Shown here piece by piece: positions 35,523 through 47,482 of a stretch of DNA of 48,496 nt (within the stretch, counting starts at the first letter, position 1; every line of letters begins with the position of its first letter). The stretch covers positions 1 through 48,496 of the forward strand of contig VGNX01000008.1 of NCBI GenBank assembly GCA_016865855.1. Direction: 5' to 3'. The stretch is from Chloroflexota bacterium (lineage in GTDB: Bacteria; Chloroflexota; Dehalococcoidia; GIF9; UBA5629). A program made the position numbers and the translations under genes. The notes below the pieces were generated by a model, which saw only the letters and a program-made list of their open reading frames with translations, ran no database searches and was not told the DNA's origin.

Positions 35523-36953
35523 CTAAGACAAGCGACCTCGCCGCGTATATCGCTGCTGGGATTTAGCTTCACGAGCCCGCGGGGCTTTAATATCACCCCG
35601 ATAATCTGGAGCATTGATATTTAAGAATAGACTGAGGCTAGGATCAACCATCCGGGAGCTGATGCGTCTTTCGACCTCATCTAGAGAAAGGCAGGTTGTT
35701 ATCACTGTAGCTAACCTGGCATTATAGCGATAGTTGATCAGCTGATAGAGCTTTTCTTGAGCCCAAGGCGTGGCTGATTGCTCACCGAAATCATCAAGAA
35801 TAAGCACCGGAGCCTTCTTGATTTTCTCAAAGAGCTCATCGTAGGAAACTCTGCTCTCTGGATTAAAAGTAGAGCGCAAATAATCGAGAAGGTCAGTGAC
35901 CACGATGAACAAGACTGGTTTACCTTCTCGGCGCAGATGATTGGCAATGGCGGCTGCCAGGTGAGTCTTGCCACATCCATTAACCCCCTGCAAAACCAGC
36001 CAGCCTTCAGGAGATTTAGCAAAATTGACGGCATTGCGGTAGGCTTGCTCCAAGCTTTGGCGCTCTTCTTGCGAGAGATTTAGCGATTTGTAATCAAAAT
36101 TGTTGAAGGCCTTTTCGCGCAATGCCTCTAACTCTATGCTGCCAAGATGCTCCAAGGTTAGCGCGGATTTCCCCTGAATTACACATATATTGCATAGCTC
36201 AGGGTCAGTCAGATGGCCTCGTAAACCATCGTCAAACTCCTCAATCGGCACATCGGTAGTGATAACCGTAGGTAAGCGGAGATTGAAACGGTGATCAAGC
36301 AACTGCTCCAATTTTCCTTTAGCCCAGGGAGTGGTAGCCGTCATAGCTAAATCTTCCAAGATTAAGAGAGGTGCGTTTTTCACGCGCTCAAACAGCTCAT
36401 CATGAGCAATTTCACTGCTGGGACTGAAGGCACTCCGAAGATGGTCCAGCAGGTCAGCAGCGCCTATGTAAAGGACCGACTGACCCAAGCTCAGCCGATA
36501 ATTGGCGATGGCGCAGGCCAGATGGGTTTTACCACAGCCGCTCGGGCCGACTAAGATTAACCATCCCCTCGGCTCGCTGGCAAAAGCTTTGGCAGCTTCA
36601 TAGGCCCGTGTGAAATTCTGCTGTAATGCGTCTTCATCGTATCTACCGGTGGGCAGAAGGTTATCGAAGGTTAGCCGAGACAAGGCACCAAGATTACTGT
36701 ACTGTTGAAGCTGAGCCAGCTTCTCCTTTTTCAACCCCTGACGGCTGCATTGGCATGGCACAACTCGACTGAAATCAGGATTTCCCAAAGCCGATAAAGG
36801 ATGTATGAAACCAGCTCCTTTACATATTGGGCAAGCTGAGCCAGGCGAGCTTTCTTCCACTGATTCAGCGTTTGACCATGTGCCCGTATATCTGCCTGGT
36901 GTATTTGTCCCGGTCATCCGCTTTTTTAAAATCTCTTCCAGACTTTCCATCAT
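35523..36953 (-). CDS. Tandem DnaC/DnaI-type AAA+ ATPase, candidate helicase loader
   Basis: A 476-residue protein with two complete loader-type ATPase modules. An N-terminal zinc-binding region has CPIC (41-44) and CQC (67-69). Module 1 has Walker A GPSGCGKTH (136-144) and Walker B LLILED (196-201). Module 2 has GVNGCGKTH (323-331) and VLILDD (383-388) and ends with SSRMVDP (432-438), the arginine-finger position. In module 1 the same position reads RGHLTDP, so the arginine is missing. The modules resemble each other along about 150 residues, so they probably arose by duplication. ATG 36953 follows GAAGG and lies 89 bp inside the DnaD-like gene. It is probably the loader of the DnaB helicase encoded just upstream. 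Confidence 0.85.
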   Translation of the reverse strand: MMESLEEILKKRMTGTNTPGRYTGTWSNAESVEESSPGSACPICKGAGFIHPLSALGNPDFSRVVPCQCSRQGLKKEKLAQLQQYSNLGALSRLTFDNLLPTGRYDEDALQQNFTRAYEAAKAFASEPRGWLILVGPSGCGKTHLACAIANYRLSLGQSVLYIGAADLLDHLRSAFSPSSEIAHDELFERVKNAPLLILEDLAMTATTPWAKGKLEQLLDHRFNLRLPTVITTDVPIEEFDDGLRGHLTDPELCNICVIQGKSALTLEHLGSIELEALREKAFNNFDYKSLNLSQEERQSLEQAYRNAVNFAKSPEGWLVLQGVNGCGKTHLAAAIANHLRREGKPVLFIVVTDLLDYLRSTFNPESRVSYDELFEKIKKAPVLILDDFGEQSATPWAQEKLYQLINYRYNARLATVITTCLSLDEVERRISSRMVDPSLSLFLNINAPDYRGDIKAPRAREAKSQQRYTRRGRLS

Positions 36954-40970: not shown

Positions 40971-41495
40971 ATGTTAATAGACAAAATGTACATTAATGTT
41001 GCCCAGCTACTCAAAGAGCCAGTAGGCTCAAGCCGTAGATACCAAATAGACGAGAGCCTTGGTACGGACGACATAAATTCTGTTAAGGGTGAGGTAACCC
41101 TAATTCGCACCAATCGCGGCATTATGGTTAAAGGTGAAATGACAGCCGGCGTGACAGTAATTTGCAGTCGGTGTCTCAAACTGATTGATTATAAAGTGAA
41201 CTATGACTTTGAAGAGGAATGTCTTCCTAGCGTAAGCACATCCGAAGCTTTATCTTTACCTGACCAGACTGATAATATTACTATTGACGAGAGCCACATG
41301 CTGGACTTAAGCGAAACGATACGCCAATACACCTTATTAACCATACCTGCCAAGCCGCTTTGCCGTCCAGATTGTGCTGGAATCTGCCCATCTTGCGGGC
41401 ATGACCTTAATCAAGGTCCCTGCCAATGTCCGTCTCATACCTATGACCGACGCTGGTCAAAACTAGTCCGCTTGGGGAAGGAGAATAAAACCTAA
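40971..41495 (+). CDS. yceD: YceD/DUF177-family protein
   Basis: A 174-residue protein of the YceD (DUF177) family, linked to 23S rRNA processing and 50S assembly in other bacteria. The zinc-like motif CSRCLKLIDY and a C-terminal cluster CRPDCAGICPSCG with CQCPSH are visible. It abuts rpmF with no gap, as in most bacteria. ATG 40971 has no ribosome site; the ATG at 40986 is an alternative. Confidence 0.88.
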   Translation: MLIDKMYINVAQLLKEPVGSSRRYQIDESLGTDDINSVKGEVTLIRTNRGIMVKGEMTAGVTVICSRCLKLIDYKVNYDFEEECLPSVSTSEALSLPDQTDNITIDESHMLDLSETIRQYTLLTIPAKPLCRPDCAGICPSCGHDLNQGPCQCPSHTYDRRWSKLVRLGKENKT

Positions 41496-41696: not shown

Positions 41697-41796
41697 TGAC
41701 TAGCCTTGGAGACATAATCATCGCGGAAAACCGTTGGACAAGTGAGACTAAGAAAATGATTGCCCCCTCAGTGAACTTGAATTACAAGGAGGAGAT

Positions 41797-42741
41797 ATGG
41801 TAGAAGCAATAAAAGTCGCTTATATTTTCCCCGGACAGGAATCTCATTCTGTAGGCATGGGATTAGACCTTTACGTCCACTACTCTTCAGCCCGGGAAGT
41901 TTTCGATGAAGTTGACAAAACCCTGGGTTTCTCTCTGTCGCGTTTATGCTTTGAAGGCCCTCAAGACGACCTCAAGCAGACCGTCAATGTCCAGCCAGCA
42001 GTATTGGCCACAAGCGTTGCCTGCCTGAGAGCAGCTCAGGAGGTTAGCAACAACGGCATACCAGAGCCCACCTTCGTCGCTGGACATGACGTGGGCACCT
42101 ACACAGCTCTGGTAGCTGCCGGCGCTCTCAGCTTGTCTGATGCCGTGCGTTTGATTCGTGAGAGAGGACGATTAATGAACGAAGCCGGGCAAAGAACAGC
42201 CGGCGGCATGGTATCTATGACCGGCCTGGACATAGAAGTCTTCAAGAACATCTGCTTCTCCACAGGTGTTGAGATTGCCTATATTGACGCTCCAGACCAG
42301 GTCGCCGTCAGCGGCAACCAGGAAAGCCTGACCAAAGCCAAGAGGCTAGCACAGATAAAGGGGGCTCGTCGCATTATCCCACTGAGGGTAAGTGGACCTT
42401 TCAATTCTATATTAATGGAGCCGGCCATAGAAAGACTAAGAAATACCATCTCGGAGTTTACCTTTAATAAACCATCAGTCTCAGTTGTAGCTAATGTTAC
42501 TGCCCAACCGCTTACCGACCTGGAAGCGATAAAGGAGGAGCTGGTTAGCCAGATTGTCCGCCCGGTTCAATGGCAGCAATCTGTTGAAACTATGATCGCC
42601 CGAGGAGTAACCACCTTCTTTGAGATGGGGCCTGGTGAGGCACTGACCAAGTTGATTAAGCGAATCAGCCCCGGAGCACAGACCTTTAACATCAGCAGCG
42701 CTCAAACCATCAGTGAAATAGCAAGATGGCGCAGAGGCTAA
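41797..42741 (+). CDS. FabD (malonyl-CoA:ACP transacylase) homologue lacking the catalytic Ser and His
   Basis: A 314-residue protein with the overall FabD fold: FPGQESHSVGMG at the N-terminus, VQPAVLATSVA, a GHxxGxY segment, RERGRLMNEA, VSGPFxSxLM and the late FEMGPGEAL. The nucleophile elbow, usually GHSLGEY, reads GHDVGTY (Asp98 for Ser). The catalytic His, usually PFHS, is Asn203 in PFNS. The Arg of the RGRLM stretch (Arg123), which binds malonate, is kept. It is therefore not expected to form the acyl-enzyme. The frame and codon use are normal and the ribosome site AAGGAGGAG is strong, so it is expressed. Neighbours are rpmF and a radical SAM gene; there is no fabH or fabG. Confidence 0.88.
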   Translation: MVEAIKVAYIFPGQESHSVGMGLDLYVHYSSAREVFDEVDKTLGFSLSRLCFEGPQDDLKQTVNVQPAVLATSVACLRAAQEVSNNGIPEPTFVAGHDVGTYTALVAAGALSLSDAVRLIRERGRLMNEAGQRTAGGMVSMTGLDIEVFKNICFSTGVEIAYIDAPDQVAVSGNQESLTKAKRLAQIKGARRIIPLRVSGPFNSILMEPAIERLRNTISEFTFNKPSVSVVANVTAQPLTDLEAIKEELVSQIVRPVQWQQSVETMIARGVTTFFEMGPGEALTKLIKRISPGAQTFNISSAQTISEIARWRRG

Positions 42742-42814: not shown

Positions 42815-43966
42815 ATGCTAAAGCGTAGCTTGCCCCCCAAAACTGCTGCCATCTGTAACCACTGCGGCAAGAAATCCACCCTCATCTCCAAGTCCCTCGG
42901 CCTATGTACTGATTGTATCCTCCATGACTTCCAAAAGGTCAAGCCCACAATCCAGGAAGCACATCAGAAATCAAGGCAGTCCTTCAACCTACCGCTGCAA
43001 CCGCCGAAGACAAATAATGGCGTTGCTTGCCATCTATGTCTTAATGAATGTCAACTTTCGGAAGGGCAAAGGAGCTACTGCGGCATGCGCCTAGCCACAG
43101 CAAGCAAGCTCACCGGTGCCACGGCAGAAAAAGGTAATTTAAGCTGGTACTACGACCCGCTACCTACAAACTGCGTTGCCGACTGGATTTGTGCCGGCGG
43201 TATAGGCTCAGGCTATCCTGATTTTACTTATTGCCCAGGGCCTGAGCGCGGTTATAAGAACCTCGCCGTTTTCTATCAAGCTTGCTCTTTCGATTGCCTC
43301 TTCTGCCAGAATTGGCACTACCGACTGGCAGCAACAAAGCAAAACTGGGTTAGCCCTATGGAACTAGTCGATGCTGTTGACGACCGCACCTCTTGCATCT
43401 GCTACTTCGGTGGCGACCCAACACCTCAATTACCCCACGCCTTGCGTGCCTCACGTCTCGCCTTAGATAAAAATAAAGGGCGTATCCTCCGCATTTGCTG
43501 GGAAACCAACGGCTCGATGCACCCAGCTTCACTCAAGCAAGCGGCTAAGCTGTCGCTTGACTCCGGCGGCTGCATCAAGTTTGACCTCAAAGCCTGGAAC
43601 GAGAAGCTGCATATCGCCCTCTGTGGCATTAGCAACAAAAGAACCCTGGAGAATTTCAGCCTTCTCGCCGACTATGCAAAGAGAAGACCTGTGCCACCTT
43701 TCCTTATAGCCAGCACCTTGCTCGTTCCCGGTTATATAGATGAGCAGGAAGTCTCCAACATCGCCAGATTTATCGCCTCTTTAGACCAGAATATACCTTA
43801 CGCACTTCTCGCCTTCCATCCTGATTTCCTGATGACAGACTTGCCAACTACATCGCTTCAACATGCTGAGCGGTGCTTAACAGCAGCTAAAGAGGCCGGC
43901 TTATGCCGGGTGCGGCTGGGAAACATTCATTTGTTGAGGAATGAATATCAGGATGACTGGATTTAG
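42815..43966 (+). CDS. Radical SAM protein, glycyl-radical-activase-like
   Basis: A 383-residue radical SAM enzyme. The cluster motif is CSFDCLFC (Cys157, Cys161, Cys164), the CX3CX2C type. Two N-terminal cysteine modules, CNHC with CTDC and CHLCLNEC with CG, probably bind zinc. An approach segment contains WYYDPLPTNCVADWICAGG. The fold resembles pyruvate-formate-lyase activases and the AmmeMemoRadiSam-type enzymes; the substrate is unknown. It lies between the FabD homologue and nusB, and its stop overlaps nusB. Confidence 0.85.
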   Translation: MLKRSLPPKTAAICNHCGKKSTLISKSLGLCTDCILHDFQKVKPTIQEAHQKSRQSFNLPLQPPKTNNGVACHLCLNECQLSEGQRSYCGMRLATASKLTGATAEKGNLSWYYDPLPTNCVADWICAGGIGSGYPDFTYCPGPERGYKNLAVFYQACSFDCLFCQNWHYRLAATKQNWVSPMELVDAVDDRTSCICYFGGDPTPQLPHALRASRLALDKNKGRILRICWETNGSMHPASLKQAAKLSLDSGGCIKFDLKAWNEKLHIALCGISNKRTLENFSLLADYAKRRPVPPFLIASTLLVPGYIDEQEVSNIARFIASLDQNIPYALLAFHPDFLMTDLPTTSLQHAERCLTAAKEAGLCRVRLGNIHLLRNEYQDDWI

Positions 43967-44405
43967 ACGGAAGGCCAGAACTATTGCTCTACAGACGCTT
44001 TACGAGCTTGACTGTTCCGCTCACAAGCCGAAGGAGATTCTGGCTCGCTTGCTGAAGGAGAGAGCCCTGCCTGATGAAGCAGCCGATTTTGCTCAGAGCT
44101 TAGTCAAAGGAGTTCTTCAGAATAAGAAGGACATCGATGATGTAATTCGAAGGTTCGCTCCCGCTTTCCCTGTCGAGCAAATAGCCACCATAGATAGAAA
44201 CATTCTTCGCCTTGCCATTTTTGAGGTTTTATTCGATAATAGAGTTCCAGTTAAAGCAGCTATTAATGAAGCTGTTGAGTTAGCTAAGAGCTTTGGTGGT
44301 GATACTTCCCAGAAATTTGTCAACGGGGTTTTGGGCTCTGTAGTCAATGCAGGTATGCAGCAAAAGAAACGACAGGAAGCGATTAAAGAAACTGAACAAA
44401 CCTGA
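43953..44405 (+). CDS. nusB: Transcription antitermination factor NusB
   Basis: A 150-residue NusB counted from ATG 43953. The family opening RRKARTIALQTLYELD fits this start; an ATG at 43941 is also in frame. The core ILRLAIFEVLFDNRVPVKAAINEAVELAKSFG is diagnostic. NusB helps RNA polymerase read through rRNA operons with NusE (S10). It overlaps the end of the radical SAM gene by about 14 bp and ends 14 bp before the ACP homologue. Confidence 0.93.
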   Translation: MTGFRRKARTIALQTLYELDCSAHKPKEILARLLKERALPDEAADFAQSLVKGVLQNKKDIDDVIRRFAPAFPVEQIATIDRNILRLAIFEVLFDNRVPVKAAINEAVELAKSFGGDTSQKFVNGVLGSVVNAGMQQKKRQEAIKETEQT

Positions 44406-44419
44406 ATGCCCAGAGGAAA

Positions 44420-44680
44420 ATGATGGCACTAATTTCGGAAAAGCTTAAGAAGGTGATTGCGGAGCAACTCGGTGTTGACGAAGAATCAATAGAGCCTTCG
44501 GCATCCTTTGTTGACGACCTCAATATTGCCCCCCCCGATTTGGCAGAGCTTATCACGGCAATAGAACAGGAATTCAGCACGCCAAGACGCAGGCTGGAAA
44601 TATCAGACGAAGATACCGATAAAATCGTTACCGTTCAGGACCTCATTGACTGCCTTCACGACTACGGCATAGAAGACTAA
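44420..44680 (+). CDS. Acyl carrier protein homologue lacking the phosphopantetheine serine
   Basis: An 86-residue protein that aligns without gaps to ACP around the modification site: SFVDDLNIAPPDLAELITAIEQEF against [23 protein letters not shown] (quoted in part). The DSL motif reads APP, so the serine that carries 4'-phosphopantetheine is a proline, and the flanking Asp and Leu are changed too. Helix 1, helix 3 (DEDTDKIVTVQDLIDCL) and the acidic surface are conserved. It cannot carry an acyl chain. The codon series is GCC CCC CCC GAT, eight Cs; the frame is preserved on both sides. A second ATG at 44423 is possible. Confidence 0.87.
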   Translation: MMALISEKLKKVIAEQLGVDEESIEPSASFVDDLNIAPPDLAELITAIEQEFSTPRRRLEISDEDTDKIVTVQDLIDCLHDYGIED

Positions 44681-44991: not shown

Positions 44992-45276
44992 TTGCTCTAC
45001 ATCGAATCTCTAGAGATCGATGACCACATACTGGACAAGATTGAGAGCAAGCACAGCATCATCTTTAGCAAAGTGGAGGAGGCCTGTCTATCGGATAAGA
45101 GACATGTCAGGAAAAGCAAAGAAGGACTATACAAACTCTTCAGCCAAACTGATGCAGGGAGATATATACTGGTTGTGCTGATAAAACTTGGAAATGGCAG
45201 TTGGAAGGTTGTCACTGCCAGGGAGATGACCGATAGTGAGAGACAGCTTTATAGGAAGACAACTGGAGGCAAATAA
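44992..45276 (+). CDS. BrnT-like toxin of a type II toxin-antitoxin pair
   Basis: A 94-residue protein of the BrnT/RelE-like RNase class. The C-terminal TAREMTDSERQLYRKT is the BrnT-type signature, and the middle has GRYILVVLIKL as expected. Toxins of this class cleave mRNA when not bound by their antitoxin. The start is TTG 44992 with AAGGAG upstream. Toxin first, antitoxin second, is the BrnTA order. The antitoxin start follows its stop by one base. Confidence 0.78.
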   Translation: MLYIESLEIDDHILDKIESKHSIIFSKVEEACLSDKRHVRKSKEGLYKLFSQTDAGRYILVVLIKLGNGSWKVVTAREMTDSERQLYRKTTGGK

Positions 45277-45277
45277 A

Positions 45278-45511
45278 ATGACTGATTTAGGTAAAGCAAT
45301 AAAGGAAATTGAGCAGGGCAACGCCTGGGACGAGAGCGATGAGGTTGTTCAGGTAGAAGTTAAGAAACCACTGGACAAGGTTATTCCGGTGCGTCTCTCG
45401 GCGGACAAGTGGGAAGAAATCAGGAGAGAGGCGGAGGAGCTTGGAGTTGGCCCCACCACCCTGGCCCGCATGTGGATTCTGGAGCGCCTGCGCCAGCGAG
45501 TGAAGGCTTAA
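45278..45511 (+). CDS. BrnA/CopG-like antitoxin
   Basis: A 77-residue antitoxin starting at ATG 45278 (GGAGG 8 bp upstream, inside the toxin end). The C-terminal VIPVRLSADKWEEIRREAEE and TTLARMWILERLRQ form a ribbon-helix-helix DNA-binding domain. The N-terminal part (KAIKEIEQGNAWDES) would wrap the toxin. It most likely binds the palindrome at 44944-44966. An in-frame GTG/ATG at 45236 overlaps the toxin and lacks a ribosome site. Confidence 0.78.
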   Translation: MTDLGKAIKEIEQGNAWDESDEVVQVEVKKPLDKVIPVRLSADKWEEIRREAEELGVGPTTLARMWILERLRQRVKA

Positions 45512-45719
45512 CAGATATTAGCTGCTAGCTTTCGTCTTGCGCCGGCTTTTCGCCGAAGTTTTTCTTGCATTTTGATGGCAGCTGTAACATAGAAAGTGGT
45601 ACAATAACCGGGGGCAGGTCAATGTCTATGAAAGTATGTCAGGTGTAGCTTATGCTGCAACGTGTAGTTTTGTTGATGGATGGTTGTTCTGGAAAGCGTC
45701 TGATAAGGAGTAAATAACA
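45512..45719. other. Non-coding gap between toxin-antitoxin and restriction genes
   Basis: About 210 bp without a supported gene. A short stem CGGC/GCCG with a following TTTTT near 45542-45563 could be a weak terminator. TACAAT at 45600-45605 is a candidate -10 without a good -35. Confidence 0.5.
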
Positions 45720-46748
45720 GTGCTCTTAAAACTATTTGATGATGAACTTTTATTAAAAAAAGAACCTAATGCTAGTAGTAATCATAAAGAGGAGATTTGC
45801 CGTCTTGACCTTGATAGCGAACTAAGAGGAAAAATCCTACCGTTTTGCAGGTTAAAATATGGCGAAGTGTGGGAAGACAAGGAAAAGGGTCATAGGATTG
45901 GTGTCTTAGATGCTACAAAATTAGATGACGTAAAAAAAATAGTTGATAGTGGGGTGAAGCTAGTCATAAATGACCCACCATACAACATTGTAGTTGGAAA
46001 TGCCAATACAAACAATTTATCCAAGATAGAACTACATAAGTATCTCGAATTTTCAAGGGAATGGATTTGTAATGCAATTGCCATGACTGATAGTGATGCT
46101 ACTTTTTATATATGGATAGGTGCAGATTATAGGAATGATTTTCAGCCGCTTGCCGACCTCATAATTCTACTAAGACAATTTAAGCAACTTAAGCCTAAAA
46201 ACCTAATTACTGTTAGAAATCAGCGGGGGTACGGTACACAAAAAAATTGGATGTGGGTTAGACAAGAGCTTTTACATTACACAAAGGGTAATCCAGTATT
46301 CAATGTTGAAGCAGAATATACGGACATTCCTAAGATTTTGCGTGGTTATTATAAGACAGTTAACGGGCAACTAACTGAGAATTTAGAAAGGAGTAAGTCT
46401 GAATACATCAGAGCTGGTAATGTGTGGGTGGATATACAACAGGTTTTCTATAGAATGGAAGAAAATGTACCTGGATGCTATGCACAAAAACCTCTAAAAG
46501 CCATTGAAAGATTGATTTTAGCTGGTAGCACGGAAGGTGAACTTGTAGCAGATTTCTTTTCACACGCTGGAACCACACTTATTGCCGGAGAAAAGTTAAA
46601 CAGGAAGGTATATACATTCGATATAGACCCTATATTTGCAGAAATTACAATACGGAGATTGGAACATTATAGGAGAACTGGTAAGACTGGTTGGCAATGG
46701 AATAATCCTTTCCCAGAATTGGGTGTGTTGACAGAAATAAACGCATGA
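45720..46748 (+). CDS. Type II DNA methyltransferase (beta-class N4/N6)
   Basis: A 342-residue DNA methyltransferase. The catalytic motif DPPYNI is at residues 85-90 and the SAM-binding motif DFFSHAGTT at about 278-286, so the motif order IV before I gives the beta class that methylates adenine N6 or cytosine N4. The recognition region between them is unlike any I can name. The start is GTG 45720 with AAGGAG upstream. It overlaps the downstream endonuclease gene by 4 bp. AT-rich DNA and a location beside a toxin-antitoxin pair suggest horizontal transfer. Confidence 0.87.
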   Translation: MLLKLFDDELLLKKEPNASSNHKEEICRLDLDSELRGKILPFCRLKYGEVWEDKEKGHRIGVLDATKLDDVKKIVDSGVKLVINDPPYNIVVGNANTNNLSKIELHKYLEFSREWICNAIAMTDSDATFYIWIGADYRNDFQPLADLIILLRQFKQLKPKNLITVRNQRGYGTQKNWMWVRQELLHYTKGNPVFNVEAEYTDIPKILRGYYKTVNGQLTENLERSKSEYIRAGNVWVDIQQVFYRMEENVPGCYAQKPLKAIERLILAGSTEGELVADFFSHAGTTLIAGEKLNRKVYTFDIDPIFAEITIRRLEHYRRTGKTGWQWNNPFPELGVLTEINA

Positions 46749-47482
46749 ACATAGACCAACTCAAGACATATCTAGATACGCTCATTAAAACGCTGGCGAC
46801 GGAAGATAAAGAACGATTGATGGCACGTATGAGTGAATTGATATCACGATTCCCATTTAATGAGTATGAGTATATCCTTATGTTTCTGTTGAATAAGAAA
46901 ACCATTGGGTTTAATGATTATGAGAAACTAAGAGATAAATATGTCTCCGCCAACAAGTATCGTGACCTTTTTGATATTGCACCACGTGTATTTGGAGGAA
47001 CGTGGGCAGAAAATCACGTGATAGAACTAGATAACCGCTTCGTAAAAGCAAAAAGGGACTCAGACCCAGCATTTAGCGGAGATTATGACTTGCGGATAGA
47101 TAGTGTGAAAGTTGAGGTTAAGGCTTGTAGGGCATATGACAAGAATAAATCAGGAAGCATGGGAGAGAAGGCTATTCCTCATGATTCACCAGCTCGCTTT
47201 TGGATGAATTTCCAACAATTAAAGCCTGATTTGTGTGATGCCTTTATCTTTATTGGCGTATGGACTAATCAAATAATCTATTGGGCATTGTCTGCCGATG
47301 AAGTTAGAAATAATCCGTATGTTAGCCATCAGCACAGAGGAGGAATTGAATACCAAATTGGCGTTACGGATAGAAATATTAGGGAGTTCGATAAATACCA
47401 AGTAGAACCATCTCGGTTAGGAAGCGAGACCATGAAAAAAGGGAGAACGAAGAAAAATAATCCTTCCATTCCTTGTCTCTAA
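46745..47482 (+). CDS. Type II restriction endonuclease (PD-(D/E)XK)
   Basis: A 245-residue protein translationally coupled to the methyltransferase (ATGA overlap). A PD-(D/E)XK core is visible: GDYD (Asp115), then VEVK with Glu124 and Lys126. The N-terminal part is helical and the C-terminus basic. The gene order methyltransferase then endonuclease and the overlap make a restriction enzyme likely. I cannot assign a recognition sequence. The gene looks complete. Confidence 0.78.
   Translation: MNIDQLKTYLDTLIKTLATEDKERLMARMSELISRFPFNEYEYILMFLLNKKTIGFNDYEKLRDKYVSANKYRDLFDIAPRVFGGTWAENHVIELDNRFVKAKRDSDPAFSGDYDLRIDSVKVEVKACRAYDKNKSGSMGEKAIPHDSPARFWMNFQQLKPDLCDAFIFIGVWTNQIIYWALSADEVRNNPYVSHQHRGGIEYQIGVTDRNIREFDKYQVEPSRLGSETMKKGRTKKNNPSIPCL

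Follow-up and report, generated by a model that had tools for sequence, protein, structure and literature searches.

FabD and the acyl carrier protein (ACP) are textbook components of fatty-acid synthesis (FAS), an essential pathway, and relatives of both serve elsewhere. Bacterial structural-subunit ACPs, such as that of MukBEF (9gm6), sit inside a non-lipid complex, keep their serine and also serve FAS. Human MCAT, which has the FabD fold and is also known as a transacylase, plays a role in ribosome assembly that is separate from fatty-acid synthesis, acting as an assembly factor for the small subunit of the mitoribosome and holding rRNA elements apart (PMC9892005). Plasmodium falciparum has lost mitochondrial FAS II together with its phosphopantetheinyl transferase and has kept an essential ACP, whose serine is replaced by Phe and which binds Isd11 (PMC8547962); according to the searches of that study, Ser-less ACPs of this kind occur only in Apicomplexa and one chromerid (PMC8547962). 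We found no report of FAS loss in Dehalococcoidia, or of FabD pseudoenzymes, in the openly accessible literature.

In the window, the whole stretch of 48,496 nucleotides analysed here from a Dehalococcoidia genome, an intact frame of 314 aa with an ATG start (41797..42741, + strand) encodes a FabD/MCAT homologue, assigned by family search, alignment and structural model, that lacks the catalytic Ser-His dyad. Asp98, within GHDVGTY (codon GAC, 42088..42090, +), stands in place of the catalytic serine of GHSxG, and Asn203, within SGPFNS (codon AAT, 42403..42405, +), in place of the catalytic histidine of the PFHS/PSH motif. Both replacements had been proposed in the original prediction and are confirmed by reading of the codons and by HMMER alignments with solved FabDs. 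The accompanying claims, that frame, ribosome-binding site, malonate-binding arginine and fold are all retained, were likewise borne out. The gene is preceded by the ribosome-binding site AAGGAGGAG (41786..41794, +, direct reading), Arg123 (codon AGA, 42163..42165, +; by alignment the counterpart of E. coli Arg117) is invariant in 39 of 39 aligned FabD copies, and the predicted structure (model m32b1209afef4; pLDDT 93.8, pTM 0.92) matches bacterial FabD (about 0.92 for E. coli 1mla) and chain A of 6u0j at TM 0.90-0.93. With 289.3 bits against the NCBIfam equivalog TIGR00128 (cut-off 260.9), the protein would be called an active enzyme by automatic annotation. Compared with described FabDs (TIGR00128, PF00698; 1mla, 6u0j), it thus shares the fold, the equivalog-level score, Gln14, Arg123, Gln252 and an ACP-facing KGARR segment, but it has neither the nucleophile serine nor the histidine, its active-site loop is altered (GQES), and its host has no detected FAS II. 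Its likeness to human MCAT (8csp chain 8, a mitoribosomal assembly intermediate; TM 0.86) is, as far as the model goes, one of fold only.

The second disarmed protein is encoded in the same locus, which is opened by yceD (40971..41495, +; DUF177, profile match of 96 bits), a gene linked to 23S rRNA accumulation (PMC5049393). It is followed by rpmF for ribosomal protein L32 (41496..41696, +; profile match of 80 bits), fabD, a radical SAM protein gene (42815..43966, +; profile match) that is found in some relatives and is absent or shortened in others, nusB (43941..44405, +; profile matches) and, starting 15 bases downstream of the nusB end, an acp gene (44420..44680, +). The product of the latter was recognized as an ACP homologue by profile (PF00550, 30.6 bits against a cut-off of 20.8), alignment and model (m82f18870abd6; pLDDT 85.3), the model reaching a TM of about 0.8 against E. 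coli ACP when normalized by query length and aligning with other ACPs, including chain B of the crosslinked FabD-AcpP structure 6u0j and the MukBEF ACP of 9gm6. It reads NIAPPDL where intact ACPs have NADSLDL, with Pro in the Ser column, and the comparison of DDLNIAPPDLAEL with DDLNADSLDLVEL in intact ACPs shows that the phosphopantetheine serine has been lost. As in Plasmodium, the ACP fold is kept, its serine is replaced, and FAS II and the phosphopantetheinyl transferase appear lost, here on the evidence of draft MAGs. Unlike the Plasmodium protein, which pairs with Isd11, an LYR protein of Fe-S assembly, the ACP described here is bacterial and has a dead FabD in its own locus, and this FabD is more likely to be its partner than is a LYR-motif protein such as Isd11.

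The order yceD-rpmF-fabD-nusB-acp is common to the relatives, in which the locus usually ends with a convergent gene of about 1120 aa that is Mfd-like by eye, and it also occurs in outgroups with intact FabD and ACP. By this comparison the order is ancestral, so that the ribosomal neighbours yceD, rpmF and nusB lend little support to a role with the ribosome. In the window, the spot held by the Mfd-like gene in most relatives is occupied by other ORFs (44992-47482, +): one for a BrnT-like toxin that scores below the Pfam cut-off, a 91-aa ORF after it and, further on, two more, one DNA methyltransferase-like and one of 245 aa. Elsewhere in the window, a 476-aa protein encoded beside dnaB (35523-36953, - strand) carries a tandem pair of DnaC/IstB-like ATPase segments (GPSGCGKTHLA and GVNGCGKTHLA); most related loci likewise have one ORF of about 480 aa, and the product is possibly a fused helicase loader.

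Relatives of the window FabD (P0001) were found in 57 of the 60 related genomes. Extraction of the active-site columns identified 22 full-length copies at the rpmF locus whose Ser position is occupied by D or G, to which one copy from another family of the order (G032) adds to give a dead set of 23; a partial copy in G008 is extra. Position 98 is D or G in all 23 copies, and 19 of them have Y, N or S instead of the histidine at 203. The four dead FabDs with Gly98 and the histidine still present suggest that Ser was lost before His. The FPGQGSQ active-site loop has become FPGQ[ED]S, with E or D at position 15, in 22 of 22 main-clade copies. The D/N pair of the window recurs in G003, G001, G002 and G012 (94, 92, 87 and 82% identity, respectively), and the remaining members of the dead clade carry other non-catalytic pairs, D/Y, D/S, G/Y or G/H. 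The 22 dead FabDs form one clade (support 98/91) inside the rpmF-locus group of the FabD tree, which rules out a sequencing error or one-off change. Nearest to them are intact GHSLGEY/AFHS copies (G007, G010, G021 and G030), and the FabDs of a separate fab operon form a clade of their own in which GHS/AFHS is kept in 11 of 11 copies. Both kinds coexist in G002, a genome assembled as one contig, where the rpmF locus has a D/N copy and a fab operon encodes an intact FabD.

The loss of the ACP serine, which is one change on the tree, covers the same clade as the dead FabDs and extends to G007, where FabD is still intact; because of this genome, it was probably the ACP that changed before FabD. 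The locus in question (L066) has a FabK-AcpS-FabF-ACP block and an intact FabD at the rpmF locus, whereas its nusB-linked ACP reads NVGPSDL, with the serine gone, and it likely represents an intermediate state. The other exception to the pairing is G032, in which a Ser-less FabD (GHGLGEY/AFYS; L080, 7022-7966) lies at the same locus as an ACP with DSS. This is possibly an independent loss, but a tree with all dead FabDs as one clade is not rejected (p-AU 0.29), so that a single loss that includes G032 is compatible with the data.

The host genome (2.0 Mb, 91% complete) contains no second FabD, no detected AcpS, no other ACP, no FabK homologue above about 50% identity and no ketoacyl synthase, the best match to the last (4.3e-4) being within the thiolase-like range. 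The same markers are absent from G003 (96% complete, 20 contigs), G014 (98%), G018 (93%), G022 (92%), G025 (96%) and G029 (93%), as well as from the less complete G005, G008, G009, G020, G024, G026 and G028. G001 is without FAS too, save for AcpS and an ACP-like gene outside any FAS context. In total, 15 of the 30 genomes of this family of uncultivated Dehalococcoidia, including the host, are FAS-less, with ketoacyl synthase, FAS-type AcpS, operon FabK, intact FabD and FAS-type ACP undetected in them; seven of these have a completeness of at least 91%. Since all genomes but G002 are draft MAGs in several contigs, every such absence applies to an assembly. The AcpS of G001 and its divergent ACP-like neighbour (KAKSVNF; L082, 5676-8660) apparently do not belong to FAS and lie beside genes that by eye are kinase-, phosphotransacetylase- and acyl-CoA-dehydrogenase-like.

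All FAS-less genomes but one (14 of 15) have the dead FabD, and the pair is kept wherever the locus is assembled, the contig ending inside acp in G028 and beside fabD in G029. Another nine genomes with the dead FabD have FAS genes and an intact second FabD in a separate fab operon; in one FAS-positive member, G013, AcpS itself was not found. The state of FAS changes at least six times on the FabD tree, and the FabD of the rpmF locus is kept each time. This distribution shows, at the level of the assemblies, that retention of the FabD and the ACP does not depend on FAS.

How such bacteria could make their membranes is suggested by the genes that remain. Thirteen of the 15 FAS-less genomes lack PlsX, which normally uses acyl-ACP. 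One homologue is kept in each of the host (G000:C23:19736-20695) and G003 (G003:C3:121189-122145), near DegV-family genes and with no acyl-ACP carrier detectable in these genomes. PlsY occurs in 60 of 60 genomes. Most of the family has multiple copies of PlsY and of DegV/FakB-type proteins, a gene content that suggests membrane assembly from scavenged fatty acids; the FAS-less members probably live on these via FakB-type proteins and PlsY. FabH was uninformative as a FAS marker, since most of its matches were partial and lay in much longer frames of about 480 aa, or else were short and resembled thiolases, and since FAS-positive genomes lacked it too. Archaeal-type lipids in place of fatty acids were considered and set aside, as GGGP synthase (PF01884) gave only sub-threshold partial matches in the family.

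Both proteins nonetheless evolve as genes that matter. Pairwise dN/dS (Nei-Gojobori) of the FabD is 0.03-0.16, with dS high or saturated in some pairs, and it is as low between FAS-less genomes (0.051 for G014-G022, 0.043 for G009-G020 and 0.029 for G018-G025); the values are mostly equal to or below those of NusB, YceD and L9 of the same region. The corresponding range for the ACP is 0.05-0.17, apart from one uninformative, near-unchanged pair. Mean site entropy is lower among dead FabD copies than among intact ones. All frames are intact in the clade members examined except the acp of G019, a FAS-positive member, in which one TAG interrupts the gene (L072, 7499-7765), the only broken copy seen. 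These measures indicate strong purifying selection on both proteins. It is extremely unlikely, then, that the two genes are decaying relics held in place by their operon position: loss of catalytic residues is typical of early decay, but nearly all frames are open, dN/dS is low, and the dead copies vary less than the intact ones.

The coexistence of a dead FabD with a fab operon and an intact second FabD in nine genomes would suit dead paralogs that regulate or buffer real FAS, for example a FabD that sequesters ACP or malonyl-CoA alongside the active operon. However, a regulator of FAS should decay after FAS is lost, whereas all but one of the 15 genomes that are FAS-less by several markers retain the dead FabD, with equally low dN/dS, and we regard this explanation as quite improbable. 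One might object that the loss of FAS is itself a binning artefact, every member having a fab operon beside which the two proteins diverged as paralogs. The missing markers lie mostly in one operon, so that one lost contig removes several of them, and the MAGs are fragmented. Against this, the markers are missing in seven genomes of at least 91% completeness (91, 96, 98, 93, 92, 96 and 93%), two of which have only about 20-30 contigs; both sequenced members agree in each of the genera g7 and g12; and 13 of 15 lack PlsX, a gene that also occurs at loci of its own. We therefore consider such an artefact unlikely, and the enzyme-dead clade and the selection on it are independent of the question. 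Finally, new chemistry could be imagined, in which Asp98 acts as the elbow nucleophile in the way known from haloalkane dehalogenases and epoxide hydrolases. The sequence G-H-D-x-G is similar to the nucleophile elbow that carries Asp in some alpha/beta hydrolases, and Arg123 and Gln252 are kept. Such chemistry is very unlikely, as the general-base His is lost in 7 of 7 GHD copies and sister copies at the locus have Gly98, which shows that no residue is required at position 98 across the clade.

The explanation that we favor, and hold to be fairly probable, is that the FabD and the ACP are a matched pair of non-catalytic pseudo-proteins that descend from an ancestral FAS locus and were recruited to a function independent of FAS. 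Catalytic groups are gone on both sides of the malonyl-transfer reaction, as judged from the two sequences. The FabD would be unable to load malonate and would carry out no transacylation. Its docking to the ACP, in contrast, may have been retained, with K188, R191 and R192 of the FabD and the clade-specific K285 facing the acidic helix II of the ACP. The basic KGARR patch (K188, R191 or K, R192) is kept in dead copies and corresponds to the GAKR segment of enterobacterial FabD, which we take to face ACP in 6u0j; in addition, K or R at 285 has been gained and is fixed in the dead clade. Together these features make ACP docking likely. R118, R133, K180, R183 and R269 are newly invariant basic residues as well, though this list carries little weight, given that the dead copies span a narrower phylogenetic range than the intact ones. 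The original prediction had envisaged a binder of malonyl-CoA or an ACP that does not transfer the acyl group. That the disabled fold could still bind a partner is supported by what it keeps (Arg123, Gln14, Gln252 and the KGARR patch), but the idea presupposed a working pathway: with a Ser-less ACP, and no AcpS, ketoacyl synthase or other FabD detected in the host, there is nothing to transfer malonate to.

Because the residues have been lost and the proteins are conserved even without the pathway, the pair probably has an unrelated structural job, in which the complex, or each part by itself, might scaffold or regulate another process. As a speculation, ribosome biogenesis is the first candidate by analogy, since the genes adjoin those for L32, YceD and NusB and since human mitochondrial MCAT is an assembly factor for the small subunit. 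With a pI of about 6, the FabD is an acidic protein overall and not a typical RNA-binding one; net charge was uninformative as a sign of RNA binding, the dead copies being barely less acidic than the intact ones (mean -3.8 vs -5.8). That the complex now works fully outside lipid metabolism, as a ribosome-assembly or other structural factor, is possible but doubtful.

If this proved true, bacteria would have their own equivalent of two mitochondrial cases, MCAT as a mitoribosome assembly factor and the Ser-less ACP of Plasmodium, and the moonlighting of FabD and ACP would then seem to be old in bacteria and not a mitochondrial invention. For the present, the protein is best filed as a FabD-derived pseudoenzyme that is paired with a Ser-less ACP and appears to have been kept after FAS II was lost, although annotation pipelines will label both genes as functional FAS genes. 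The family points to bacteria that apparently depend on outside fatty acids. In it the pathway has been repeatedly discarded while two disarmed parts were kept, a natural separation-of-function experiment that implies a chemistry-free second function of the FabD-ACP pair and reveals the surfaces that are still under selection.
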